From Rhizobium terricola (GTDB lineage Bacteria; Pseudomonadota; Alphaproteobacteria; Rhizobiales; Rhizobiaceae): a stretch of DNA of 64,000 nucleotides. Position numbers and translations under genes: made by a program. Under the pieces are notes generated by a model. That model was not told the origin of the DNA. It made no database searches and worked only from the letters and a program-made list of their open reading frames with translations. Below are positions 32,877 through 37,736 of the stretch, in pieces. The first letter of the stretch is position 1. Every line of letters starts with the position of its first letter. The stretch lies in contig NZ_JABBGK010000002.1 in the NCBI RefSeq assembly GCF_012927355.1, forward strand, positions 206,758-270,757, read 5' to 3'.

Positions 32877-34028
32877 CTATTCGAAGACGATCGACGGCGC
32901 AGCGCGACCGGCGCGGGCTTGTACTTCCTTCCAGACCTTGGTGGCGATGTCACGATAGACCAGCGCCTGCGGCCCCTCCGGATCGGAGACGACAACCGGC
33001 GTGCCGGCGTCGGAGGTCTCGCGAATAGCGATCGTCAGCGGAACTTCGCCGAGGAAGGGTACTCCGATCGTTTCCGCCTCGGCTCGCGCGCCACCGTGAC
33101 CGAAGATGTCATAGCGCTTGCCGGTGTCGGGCGCGATGAAGTAGCTCATGTTCTCGACAATGCCCAACACCGGCACCTCGACCTTGTTGAACATGTTGAG
33201 GCCCTTGCGCGCATCGATGAGCGCGAGATCCTGCGGGGTCGAGACAATGACTGCACCCGAGAGCGGAACCTGCTGGGCCATGGTGAGTTGGGCATCACCG
33301 GTGCCTGGCGGCATGTCGACCACCAGAACGTCGAGAGCGCCCCAGGCGACTTCACGCAGCATCTGCATCAATGCCGACTGGACCATCGGGCCACGCCAGA
33401 TCATGGCGGTTCCCTCATCGACGAGGAAGCCCATCGACATCGCCTTGATGCCGTAGTTTTCCATCGGCACGATGATGCGGTTCTCGATCTGCTGCGGACG
33501 GCCGCTGATGCCGAGCAGGCGCGGCATAGACGGGCCATAGACGTCGGCGTCCAGGATACCGACCTTCAGACCGTTGGCCTTCATGGCGAGAGCGAGATTG
33601 ACGGCGGTGGTCGACTTGCCGACGCCGCCCTTGCCCGAGGCCACGGCAATGATCGCGCCAATTCCCGGAATGGTCTGCTTACCCGGCCGGGACCCGCTCG
33701 GTGCGGGCGCGTGGCTGTGGCCATGGGAATGGGCAGGCGCAGACGCCTGCGGCCGGGGCGGCGGCGTGGAACCCGCCTTGCGTTCCGCCGTCAGGCTGAC
33801 GAGCGCACCCTTCACGCCCGGCACGGCCTTGACCGCCCGTTCGGCGGCCTGCCTCAGCGGCTCGAGAGCATCGGCGCGATCGGAGGGCACGGTGATCGAA
33901 AAATAGACCTTGCTGTCCGAAATGAAGACGTCGGAGACGAGACCGAGGCTGACGATGTCGCCCTCGAGATCCGGGCCGCGAATGGCCCTCAGGGTCTCCA
34001 TAACCTGCTCTTTCGTGACTGCGCTCAT
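32877..34028 (-). CDS. mrp: Mrp/ApbC-family iron-sulfur carrier P-loop ATPase
   Basis: A 383-residue protein: an N-terminal MIP18/DUF59 domain (about 4-82), a short His-rich linker (AHSHGHSHAP at about 99-108), and a deviant Walker A ATPase domain (VASGKGGVGKSTTAVN, about 129-144) with DADVYGPSMPRLLG and VVDMPPGTGDAQLT. Mrp proteins hold and transfer Fe-S clusters. The His-rich linker could bind metal. The CxxC cluster-binding pair seen in many homologues is not evident. ATG at 34028 with GAGGGTGG upstream. Confidence 0.94.
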   Translation of the reverse strand: MSAVTKEQVMETLRAIRGPDLEGDIVSLGLVSDVFISDSKVYFSITVPSDRADALEPLRQAAERAVKAVPGVKGALVSLTAERKAGSTPPPRPQASAPAHSHGHSHAPAPSGSRPGKQTIPGIGAIIAVASGKGGVGKSTTAVNLALAMKANGLKVGILDADVYGPSMPRLLGISGRPQQIENRIIVPMENYGIKAMSMGFLVDEGTAMIWRGPMVQSALMQMLREVAWGALDVLVVDMPPGTGDAQLTMAQQVPLSGAVIVSTPQDLALIDARKGLNMFNKVEVPVLGIVENMSYFIAPDTGKRYDIFGHGGARAEAETIGVPFLGEVPLTIAIRETSDAGTPVVVSDPEGPQALVYRDIATKVWKEVQARAGRAAPSIVFE

Positions 34029-34440
34029 ACCACCCTCTCGCGATGCGACCCCAAAACCGGGGCGTCGGAGTCTAGATAGTGGACACGGCAGGCTTCGCCA
34101 ACCCGAAAAGCTCGGCGGATACGGTCGTGGGTTGCGACCAAATCGCCCGGGGGGTGGACTGCGTGAGAATCCGGTCGACAAAAAAGGAAAGCCGCCGGCC
34201 GCGACGTCCGGAGTGGCGGACGTCAGCAGCGGCGGCTTGCCTTTGTCGCACCCTTGGCGGGTGCTGGCAGCGTCCCCTCTGGACTTGTCATTGAAATGCA
34301 GAAACCGTGCCAACTTGCGAACCACAGAGAATCATCGTTTATTTTCAAAGACTTAAGGCAAAACAGGCCGTTCCGGATGCTTTTCGACGCTCATTCTCCC
34401 TGCCTTCGTTTTGTGCGGCGCAGCAGGCGGCGCGCAAAAA
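34029..34440. other. Intergenic region between mrp and the NasS-like gene
   Basis: No gene is seen in these 412 bp. The main feature is a large nested hairpin at 34189-34238. The segment upstream of mrp should hold its promoter, but I find no convincing core elements. AT content rises near 34320-34390. Confidence 0.6.
34189..34238. terminator. Nested hairpin downstream of the NasS-like gene
   Basis: Outer arms AAGCCGCCG (34189-34197) and CGGCGGCTT (34230-34238) enclose an inner stem GACGTCCG/CGGACGTC (34203-34210 and 34217-34224). Minus-strand transcription from the NasS-like gene reads through it into TTTCCTTTTTT, so it may be a distant terminator, or part of a small RNA. Confidence 0.55.
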
Positions 34441-35676
34441 TCAGGCAATGGAGGTTGGAGACTGCCCGGCAATGTAGTCATCGAGACGATCCGGATCGAA
34501 GAGGCCGCGATCGAAGAAACCGTCCGGCCCGAGGACCATCCGGCCATTGGCGGCCCCGACGTCACGGGCTTCCGGCAAGGCGCCCTCAACCTTGAGGTTG
34601 GCGCCCGGCATCGGCGCGAAGACAGGCTTCAGGGCCTGGCGATAGAGATCGGGGCGGTAGCTGTCGCGGGCGATCGCCACATGGAGCGGATGGTGGGCGC
34701 AATCGCCCCAGCGCACCATCTGGCTGTAGAACCACAGGGCGTGGCTCTGCCAAGGAAAGGTCGCGGCTTTCTTCTCGAACTGGACGAAATCGGTCGTGGT
34801 CACCACGCGGCCCGCTTCGACACCCAAGATGCCGGTCAGGCCCGGCAGCAGCAATTCCCCCCGCACGTCGAGATATTGCCGGGCGGCGAGTACGCCGGCC
34901 AGTTCCTCGATGTTGGCGGGATTGGCGCACCATTGCGCGGCCCTGTAGAGCGCGCGCAGCAGGGCCTGCAGCAGAAGGGGATTGGCCTCGACCCAAGGTT
35001 CCGACAAGCCCAGAACCTTGTCCGGGCCGGACCGCCATATCGCCGAGGTCGTGGAAACGATGCAGGCCTGCCCGCGTTCCACAGCGAGGCTCGCCCATGG
35101 CTCGCCGACGCAGCAGCCGTCGATCATACCGTTTGACAGCGCGACCGGCACTGGTGCCGGTTCACCGGAAATGGTCTCGACATCGCCGATCGGGTGGATG
35201 CCGCTGGCAGCCAGCCAGTAACGCAAGGCAAGATTGGCGCCGGAGAGACGGTGGCCGACGGCGAGGCGCAGCCTCGGCGATCCGATCGCTCGCCGCCGAC
35301 GCACGACCGCGGCAAGCGCTGCTCCCGCTTGTGCCGGGTCGAGGTCGTCGGAAAGGCCGACTTCCTTCATCTCGTCGTGGATGGGGCCTGCGATGACGAT
35401 CGCGTTGCCGCCGAGCCCGAGCGCCATCGGCGCAACCATCGGCACGGCGAGCGGCGCAAGTCCAAGATTGGATCCTATGAGCAGCGGGCCGGGCATCTGC
35501 GCGCCGGCGAACTGGCCCATGAGGACGCGGTCGCGCACCTGCGTCCACGATGTCTCGCGCACCAATCTCAGATCGAGGTTCTCGTCGCTGGCGAAGCCTC
35601 TTTCAACCGCGACCACCAGGATGGCGCTGTCGAGCAGCGGAAGGAAGCCGAGGGTGATCTGCGGTCGGTTCGGCAT
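34441..35676 (-). CDS. NasS/NrtA-like nitrate-type ligand-binding protein without signal peptide
   Basis: A 411-residue type II periplasmic-binding-fold protein of the CmpA/NrtA/NasS group: LGFLPLLDSAILVVAVERGF, VRETSWTQVRDRVLMGQFAGAQM, VGEPWASLAVERG, and a C-terminal region with FYSQMVRWG. It begins directly with the first beta strand and has neither a signal peptide nor a lipobox, so it should be cytoplasmic like the nitrate sensor NasS rather than a transporter component. No permease or ATPase gene adjoins it. It lies 16 bp downstream of a LuxR-type regulator on the same strand. NasS normally partners an ANTAR protein (NasT), absent here. Confidence 0.78.
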   Translation of the reverse strand: MPNRPQITLGFLPLLDSAILVVAVERGFASDENLDLRLVRETSWTQVRDRVLMGQFAGAQMPGPLLIGSNLGLAPLAVPMVAPMALGLGGNAIVIAGPIHDEMKEVGLSDDLDPAQAGAALAAVVRRRRAIGSPRLRLAVGHRLSGANLALRYWLAASGIHPIGDVETISGEPAPVPVALSNGMIDGCCVGEPWASLAVERGQACIVSTTSAIWRSGPDKVLGLSEPWVEANPLLLQALLRALYRAAQWCANPANIEELAGVLAARQYLDVRGELLLPGLTGILGVEAGRVVTTTDFVQFEKKAATFPWQSHALWFYSQMVRWGDCAHHPLHVAIARDSYRPDLYRQALKPVFAPMPGANLKVEGALPEARDVGAANGRMVLGPDGFFDRGLFDPDRLDDYIAGQSPTSIA

Positions 35677-35692
35677 CCGACGGCGGTCGCGC

Positions 35693-36430
35693 CTACTTGA
35701 TGAGCCCGAGCCGCAGCGCCTTGGCGACCGCCTGCGTCCGGTTCACCGTATCGAGCTTCTTGGTGGCACGGTTGAGATAGTGGTTGATGGTGTGTTCCGA
35801 CAGCCCGAGGATTTCCGCGATCTCGACGCTGGTCTTGCCGGCGGCGGTCCAGTTCAGGCAATCGATCTCGCGCTCCGTCAGCATGTCCGTGGCGCGATTG
35901 TCGAGCTCGCGTATCTCGGCCAGGCGGTTGTAGACGTGAACCGATAGATACATGAGTTCGATCATCTCGGCCGGCGTGAAGAGCGCACGATCGCCGGCGA
36001 AGGAGACGGCGCCGCGCATGCCGGATGCATCGTGAACCGGGAAATAGGCGCCGCGGGGCATGCGGAAGCGCTCGAACAGGGAACGAGAGAGATCCGTCGT
36101 CTGCGCGTCGCGCTGCTTGGCTACGTGGGCGATATCATAGGTGAAGGGCGCAGTCGCGGTGCGCAGGCGCGTGAGGATCGGGCTGGTGGGCAAAAGCGCG
36201 GTCTGATCGAATTCGGAGAGCAGATCCGCAGGCCAGTTGGTAATGATCGAACTGCTGGAAAGGTCCAGCGAGGTCGCAGAAGGAAGGTTCAGCACCATGA
36301 ATGCGCGCGCACCATAGTTTTCGGTCAGCCGCTTCATGAAATGGAAGACGTCGAACTGGGTCTTGAACCCGCTGATATCGGCGACGTAACCGGCAATCCG
36401 GTCCGCACCGTCAGTTTCATTCACACTCAT
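35693..36430 (-). CDS. LuxR-family regulator with autoinducer-binding-like domain (LuxR solo)
   Basis: A 245-residue regulator: an N-terminal LuxR ligand-binding fold (about 20-170) and a C-terminal GerE-type HTH (about 180-240; LTEREIDCLNWTAAGKTSVE, LGLSEHTINHYLNRATKKL). In the ligand domain, the Asp-Pro pair that anchors AHL signals in LuxR/TraR appears as Ser-Pro (LLPTSPIL), so AHL binding is doubtful. No luxI-type synthase is nearby. It is the first gene of a two-gene unit with the NasS-like protein. No lux-box could be recognised upstream. Confidence 0.82.
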   Translation of the reverse strand: MSVNETDGADRIAGYVADISGFKTQFDVFHFMKRLTENYGARAFMVLNLPSATSLDLSSSSIITNWPADLLSEFDQTALLPTSPILTRLRTATAPFTYDIAHVAKQRDAQTTDLSRSLFERFRMPRGAYFPVHDASGMRGAVSFAGDRALFTPAEMIELMYLSVHVYNRLAEIRELDNRATDMLTEREIDCLNWTAAGKTSVEIAEILGLSEHTINHYLNRATKKLDTVNRTQAVAKALRLGLIK

Positions 36431-36848
36431 CGGATAAATTTTCTTCGCAAGACCCCAAAATCAGCAAGCGACAAATTCTTCTCCCCGTTCCGAACACGCA
36501 CTCCACGAATCTCCGCCAACGGTTGCATCGCCGGCAATATTCCCTCTTGAAGCACGTTCGGACCACGCATGACAATCGTCAAATTAAAGCCGCCCTCTGG
36601 CGTTTCCCCCTGCGTGCCACGGGGTTTGCCGCGGCCAGTCTTTTTTCCGATACCGAAAAGGAAGAGCTTTATCGACTGCAATGTGCCGGCAGTCCCGATC
36701 CCAGTCGAATCCGGCTTGCCATGGGTTGGGACAATAGCCGCAGATTCGCGTAACAGTCCAGCAGCCAACTTTATTTTACGGTAAACCCCTGCCAATAAGG
36801 GGCTCACGGCCTTACGCACTGCAAAAAGGCCTAGACCAGGGAGCGGAC
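36431..36848. other. Divergent intergenic region between the LuxR and SMP-30 genes
   Basis: This 418-bp region is divergent and must hold both promoters. I find only a short CCCCT/AGGGG hairpin at 36786-36802 near the SMP-30 start. A minus-strand reading frame spans it, but its product is basic, low-complexity and lacks a ribosome-binding site, so I do not call a gene. Confidence 0.5.
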
Positions 36849-37736
36849 ATGGCGTCACAACATTCGTTTGCCGGCAGCATTCTCGACGAGGAGCGCCTGG
36901 AGCTCGGCGAGGGACCGACCTATGACCCGGTGGCGAACTGCCTCTGGTGGTTCGACATCATGGGGCGGAGCCTGAAGCAACATGAACTCGCAGACGGCAC
37001 GACGCGTTCGCATGCCCTGCCCTTCATGGGTAGCGTGATCGCCCGGATCGACGGCAAGCGTCACCTGATCGCCTCCGATCAGGGACTTTTCCTGCGCGAT
37101 TCGGCGACCGGCGCCCTTAGCCTTCACGCGGAACTGGAACCGGCGAGCCGCGGGACCCGCTCCAACGACGGCCGGCTGCATCCGAGCGGCACATTGTGGA
37201 TCGGCACGATGGGCAAGACCGCAGCAACCGGCGCCGGCGCGATCTACCACGTGGCCGGAACGACCGTGACGCGGATCTTCGATGCGGTCAGCATTCCGAA
37301 TGCGATCTGCTTCTCTCCCGATGGTTCGGTCGGGTATTTCACCGACTCCAAGGTCAACCAGCTGATGCGCGTGCCGGTCGATCCGACCACCGGCCTGCCG
37401 ACCGGGCCCGCCTCCGTTCTCGTCGACGGCCGCGACATGCCGGGCGTCTTCGACGGCTCGGTCTGCGACGCCAACGGCCATATCTGGAACGCACGCTGGG
37501 ACGGCGGTTGCCTCGACCGGTATGATGCGCAGGGGAACCATATCGCACGCTACGCCATGCCGGCACGGCGCGTCACCTGCCCCGCCTTCTTCGGCAACAA
37601 TGCTGACCGGCTGATGGTCACCTCCTGCTGGGAGGGGCTCGACGCGACGGGGCGCGAGGCCGACAACCTGGCCGGCGCGACCTTCGAACTCGGCATTGCG
37701 GTCAAGGGTCGGATCGAGCCGGCGTTCCGCCTCTGA
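36849..37736 (+). CDS. SMP-30/gluconolactonase-family lactonase
   Basis: A 295-residue six-bladed beta-propeller hydrolase. The divalent-metal residues of the family are all visible: E21 (LGEGPTYD), N106 (RSNDGRLHP), N151 (SIPNAICFSPDG) and D202 (VFDGSVCD). Members hydrolyse sugar lactones such as glucono- or arabinono-lactone. The sugar cannot be fixed because no dehydrogenase or transporter gene adjoins. It is monocistronic and divergent from the LuxR/NasS-like unit. It has no signal peptide. Confidence 0.9.
   Translation: MASQHSFAGSILDEERLELGEGPTYDPVANCLWWFDIMGRSLKQHELADGTTRSHALPFMGSVIARIDGKRHLIASDQGLFLRDSATGALSLHAELEPASRGTRSNDGRLHPSGTLWIGTMGKTAATGAGAIYHVAGTTVTRIFDAVSIPNAICFSPDGSVGYFTDSKVNQLMRVPVDPTTGLPTGPASVLVDGRDMPGVFDGSVCDANGHIWNARWDGGCLDRYDAQGNHIARYAMPARRVTCPAFFGNNADRLMVTSCWEGLDATGREADNLAGATFELGIAVKGRIEPAFRL

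Follow-up and report, generated by a model that had tools for sequence, protein, structure and literature searches.

Gene organization and regulatory region of the locus

The window, a stretch of 64,000 nucleotides from Rhizobium terricola, carries on its minus strand a luxR gene (35693..36430) followed, after an intergenic gap of 16 bp (35677..35692), by a gene encoding a substrate-binding protein (SBP; 34441..35676). The 245-residue LuxR-family regulator contains the Pfam domains Autoind_bind (1.2e-19) and GerE (2.4e-16), and has Ser83, within the motif SPI, at the position of the AHL-anchoring Asp70 of TraR. The 411-residue SBP matches Pfam NMT1_2 (1.5e-58) and appears to be a cytoplasmic protein derived from NasS. 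Both open reading frames, the gap and the SPI motif are present as described in the original prediction, which had reported a leaderless NrtA/NasS-type binding protein behind a LuxR gene. Since no terminator-like site was found in a scan of positions 34200-37000, luxR and the SBP gene are likely co-transcribed. The next gene downstream of the SBP gene is of the apbC/Mrp type (32877..34325, minus strand; ORF taken from its first possible start) and belongs to a conserved block, luxR-(SBP)-apbC-corA-kup. Divergent from luxR, an SMP-30/gluconolactonase-like gene (36849..37736, plus strand) is a possible target of LuxR.

The regulator is of the AvhR kind. In two surveys of LuxR solos, the AvhR of A. 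vitis is tabulated as flanked by a calcium-binding protein and 'nrt' (PMC4338825, PMC10134790), and its ligand is listed as 'not yet determined' (PMC10134790). The window LuxR likewise combines the Autoind_bind and GerE domains with an SMP-30 gene on the opposite strand, an nrt-type neighbour and the lack of an adjoining luxI; the two luxI-type matches of the genome lie on contigs C1 and C15, and none was found on C12, the contig holding the window. The pair had been put forward as a switch not recognised from the literature, which needs amending in view of the avhR-nrt neighbourhood of these two surveys; there the tables label the adjoining gene as a nucleotide-binding ABC transporter, not as a NasS descendant or a co-sensor. 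No report of a NasT-less NasS with a LuxR protein was found in the open-access literature. The gene pair is real, conserved and partly noted before, to which sequence comparison now adds its tracing to a NasS that has lost both NasT and the nitrate-binding histidine.

The substitutions listed for AvhR are D70S, W57F and W85R (PMC4338825). According to our own mapping to TraR, the window LuxR has Leu at position 57, where eight rows from the window's genus have Phe; at position 85 it has Tyr, and A. vitis has Phe instead of Arg. In an alignment of LuxR orthologs scoring at least 240 bits, with groups of 48 SBP-linked and 5 luxR-nasT-nasS sequences (L105, whose apbC lies beyond its stretch, was ungrouped), Ser occupies the Asp70 position in 86/86 rows, with or without SBP. 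The replacement, noted alongside SBP in the original prediction, is independent of it and uninformative on it; adaptation of LuxR to SBP as the origin of the change is ruled out.

The palindrome TTTACGGTAAA / TTTACCGTAAA is located between luxR and the SMP-30 gene (36775..36785). Its pattern, TTTACSGTAAA, occurs once in the window (shuffle mean 0.00) and has no other exact copy in the 4.93-Mb genome. The upstream rows used to define it were those of the window, G420, G400 and G413. TTTACNGTAAA is exact in 13/100 luxR upstream stretches versus 1/2000 mononucleotide shuffles. These 13 stretches comprise the window, four other loci of its genus that couple luxR to SBP without nasT (hereafter NasT-less), one luxR-nasT-nasS locus and seven stretches devoid of SBP. 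The dyad is also exact in 16 of 19 further SBP-less loci of the genus, and absent in exact form from all stretches of the second genus searched (g18, see below) and from the A. vitis-group stretches tested. Because the SMP-30 gene lies far off or outside the stretch in several genera, the dyad seems linked to LuxR itself, and we regard it as a candidate LuxR operator, not as a mark of SBP. In several genera it is found again ahead of luxR genes of the AvhR type. A wider regulon reached through the dyad gave no signal, with 13 genome sites at one mismatch or fewer versus 30 for a reversed-pattern control.

Descent of the binding protein and distribution of the pair

NasS and NasT respond to nitrate and nitrite in Paracoccus and Azotobacter, and NasS forms a nitrate-sensitive complex with NasT (PMC3795266). 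SBP is similar to NasS in fold, is leaderless and falls phylogenetically inside NasS; it differs by the lack of nasT at its locus and by the loss of the nitrate histidine, and where its relatives have nasT, it has luxR directly upstream. Across 199 genomes searched in the family, 97 had a match at E 1e-60. Leaving out the window's own gene, the best 30 matches comprise 29 loci (L006-L034), and nasT lies upstream in every one; 28 of these loci have no luxR and one (G061) has luxR ahead of nasT. This luxR-nasT-nasS order was found in five genomes, G061 and four species of the window's genus, with an NrtA-like gene next.

In a careful tree of 34 rows, all NasT-less proteins fall into a single clade (85/88), which groups with the luxR-linked nasT-nasS proteins of the genus (99/98). 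Both then join G061 (89/80), all inside NasT-linked NasS, and the NasT-less proteins sit on longer branches than the NasT-linked ones. A quick tree of 91 rows agrees, with a support of 69 for the NasT-less clade. Given that the 29 best matches all follow nasT and that SBP branches inside NasT-linked NasS, SBP is, judged from these sequences, a NasS descendant, in agreement with its initial description as a NasS-like cytoplasmic protein. The simplest reading is that nasT and the transporter genes were probably lost once and nasS was retained. As had also been predicted, nasT is missing beside the pair. The only nasT of the genome belongs to a nasT-nasS-nrtA-nrtB cluster elsewhere (C12:1.04 Mb), whose canonical NasS is 40% identical to SBP. 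Across 48 loci, the gap between luxR and SBP was searched for leftovers of nasT and yielded one 11-residue match, at chance level.

Two genera were surveyed for the pair, that of the window (g1; 63 genomes, including A. vitis S00303, a member of Allorhizobium) and a second one (g18; 39 species). The order luxR-SBP-apbC without nasT was found in 18/63 species of g1 and 38/39 of g18, the remaining g18 genome (G460) having only a piece of SBP at a contig end. A further 4/63 species of g1 have luxR-nasT-nasS, and 41/63 lack SBP. Adjacency of luxR and SBP without nasT, found in 56 of the 102 species searched in two genera, refutes the idea that the pair is unique to this strain, and all 56 loci read contain full-length, uninterrupted SBP frames; where a TGA was flagged in a genome match, our coordinates show the match running past the natural stop of the gene.

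LuxR itself is more widespread. It is present in 62/63 genomes of g1, and in 58/58 of those of good quality, mostly without SBP. The nearest relatives (G407, G412, G421 and G425) encode a LuxR 89-90% identical to that of the window and lack SBP, and no SBP remnant was found in the luxR-apbC gap of 19 SBP-less g1 loci (one gap being empty, with an extended apbC ORF); a twentieth locus, L241, proved to come from a g18 genome that carries SBP. Since most LuxR-bearing relatives, the nearest included, are devoid of SBP, LuxR does not need it. At E 1e-50, 124/394 genomes of the family have a LuxR match; elsewhere in the class, a cut-off of E 1e-45 gave none in 288 genomes. In 60 loci, scored for ten query genes only, the next recognised gene after luxR is most often apbC (43 loci), then SBP (8) or nasT (2); the other 7 have no apbC in the stretch. 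Seven loci from other genera (L112, L114, L115, L117, L121, L123 and L124) contain two tandem luxR genes of the AvhR-type family and no SBP. The LuxR-SBP pair of the original prediction stands as to adjacency, kept in 56/102 species, but not as an obligate pair, LuxR occurring without SBP in most relatives.

Fold, binding pocket and selection

SBP starts with MPNRPQITLGF, and the first strand of its predicted model (410 residues, Met1 omitted; pLDDT 89.2, pTM 0.90) already spans residues 5-10, which leaves no room for a signal peptide. Across 48 NasT-less loci, the open frame ahead of this strand encodes 2 to 31 residues, and no hydrophobic leader was recognised by eye, in line with the predicted absence of an export signal. 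The best structural match of the model is NrtA (2g29, TM 0.83), followed by the CmpC regulatory domain and CmpA. An NrtA-like fold (from the structural match) without an export signal (from inspection by eye) is what characterizes NasS. The solved relatives of SBP, namely NrtA, CmpA and the regulatory domains of NrtC and CmpC, share its fold and, unlike SBP, are periplasmic or fused to a transporter.

W102 and Q155 are ligand residues of NrtA. NrtA also balances nitrate through His196 and Lys269 (PMC8786288), and NasS reportedly has the full set of nitrate residues (PMC3795266). Mapping by hand count on the alignments places window residue 147 at the position of His196. This position is His in 42/42 NasT-linked NasS versus 0/56 NasT-less proteins, which have Gln (13), Cys (4) or Ala (1, Ala147 of the window) in g1, and Pro (20) or Ser (18) in g18. 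Because the NasT-less set is one clade, the comparison counts the loss of His as one event, after which the position drifted between five residues, and not as 56 events. At the position of Lys269, 55 of the 56 NasT-less proteins have Lys and one has Arg, not the Glu of CmpA. W44 is kept in 18/18 g1 proteins versus 0/38 in g18, where the pocket has diverged further; six of the seven pocket positions checked in the window protein are NasS-like, His being the sole difference. Nitrate, one of the ligands originally suggested, is unlikely with His gone in 56/56 proteins, and so is bicarbonate bound in the manner of CmpA, with Lys in place of Glu in 55/56. Both arguments are less clear-cut for the window protein, whose pocket still leaves some room for the initial suggestion.

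Conservation is uneven along the protein. Among positions invariant in 33 closely related NasT-linked NasS, 48 NasT-less rows keep 14/49 in residues 1-200 versus 36/50 in residues 201-411 (Fisher p 2e-5). The figures become 11/38 in the N-terminal half and 18/26 in the C-terminal half (p 0.002) when invariance is taken from the full set of 42 NasT-linked rows. From pairs with a dS of 0.1-1, the median dN/dS of SBP is 0.082 in g18 (188 pairs) and 0.137 in g1 (28 pairs), compared with 0.080 and 0.054 for LuxR and 0.062 and 0.065 for ApbC, values which indicate that SBP is under purifying selection.

Candidate partners of the binding protein

The most likely single reading, which we hold tentatively, is that SBP acts as a co-sensor controlling the neighbouring LuxR. 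In this reading, the SBP gene is the remnant of a nasT-nasS-nrt operon once located immediately behind an AvhR-type luxR. nasT and the transporter genes disappeared, probably once; the remaining NasS lost its nitrate histidine, and purifying selection has maintained it as a cytoplasmic protein next to luxR. SBP could then bind a ligand other than nitrate or work ligand-free, and would modulate LuxR through protein contact, as NasS does on NasT and AmiC on AmiR, LuxR acting in turn on the luxR/SMP-30 divergent region via the TTTACSGTAAA dyad. If so, the system would resemble AmiC-AmiR in that a cytoplasmic binding protein is encoded beside the regulator that it controls, and differ from it in having a DNA-binding LuxR protein instead of an ANTAR regulator and a binding protein of another family. 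A bolder version, in which the NasS-lineage receptor has swapped its RNA-binding ANTAR partner for the DNA-binding LuxR, accommodates another ligand where nitrate used to bind, holds or releases LuxR, and supplies the missing signal input of AvhR in A. vitis, seems to us rather unlikely as a whole.

A partner other than LuxR, encoded elsewhere in the genome, is a possibility that we take seriously; the adjacency would then simply be inherited from a nas operon located behind luxR. Such a partner would be consistent with the presence of LuxR without SBP in most relatives and with the spacing between the two genes, the distance from the luxR stop to SBP residue 6 varying from 31 to 205 nt across 48 loci and being loose in several lineages. 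Four loci (L125, L126, L130 and L131) have a longer luxR-SBP gap with a common stretch, TTGCTTTTCGGCAAGAAATGC. Correlated distances weakly support a link between LuxR and SBP, the partial r given ApbC being 0.83 in 30 species of g18 and 0.62 in 18 of g1 (p 0.0005 each); common neighbourhood or shared history could explain them. With ApbC, CorA and Kup as controls, the g18 value is 0.85 (24 of 31 loci, the others being without enough of kup), and on ranks LuxR-SBP, at 0.50, is no better than CorA-Kup, at 0.52, which also suits a partner other than LuxR. In 13 species of g1, with ApbC and CorA as controls, r is 0.56 and the rank value 0.45, next to 0.53 for SBP-ApbC and 0.51 for ApbC-CorA. What speaks for LuxR as the partner is the company of luxR and SBP in nearly every species of g18, together with the lack of any NasT-less SBP away from luxR among the loci read, a set to which most of the weaker family and genus matches do not belong.

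It is improbable that SBP serves as a second, nitrate-blind regulator binding the NasT encoded elsewhere. The conserved C-terminal half could represent a NasT surface, and a NasT search of 62 genomes returned one match in 61 of them, unbroken in 60 (five of these at the luxR locus). The exception, G400 (99% complete), keeps an uninterrupted SBP beside luxR in a genome where no NasT or ANTAR match was found. G477 has a nasT match with two stops (G477:C2:41752-42234), no canonical NasS match and, again, an SBP next to luxR that is free of interruptions. When eight genomes were searched with Pfam ANTAR, none was found in either of these two, the absence being weaker for G477, which is 91% complete.

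Two further explanations carry still less weight. Decay of a leftover from the nas operon would account for the absence of SBP from most g1 species, for its longer branches and for the loss of binding residues, but is very unlikely in view of the intact frames in 56 loci, median dN/dS values of 0.08 and 0.14, the conserved C-terminal half and a well-formed predicted fold. A transport binding protein with no recognisable leader, for which the NrtA fold could be invoked, is scarcely credible for a descendant of NasS that shows no leader by eye in 48 loci and is flanked by luxR and apbC, with no transporter genes between them.

The co-sensor reading makes SBP a concrete, testable candidate for the signal input of AvhR, and in some plant-associated bacteria the descendant of a nitrate sensor may now sense something else on behalf of a LuxR-type switch. 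The locus is also an instance in nature of a sensor that has survived the loss of its partner's gene, with two genomes where no ANTAR protein was found. In genome G000 (L245, C2:94000-101000), a second ANTAR match (C2:97471-97626) lies beside a gene that, by eye, resembles those of AmiC-type binding proteins, and this genome may hold an AmiC-AmiR-like pair.
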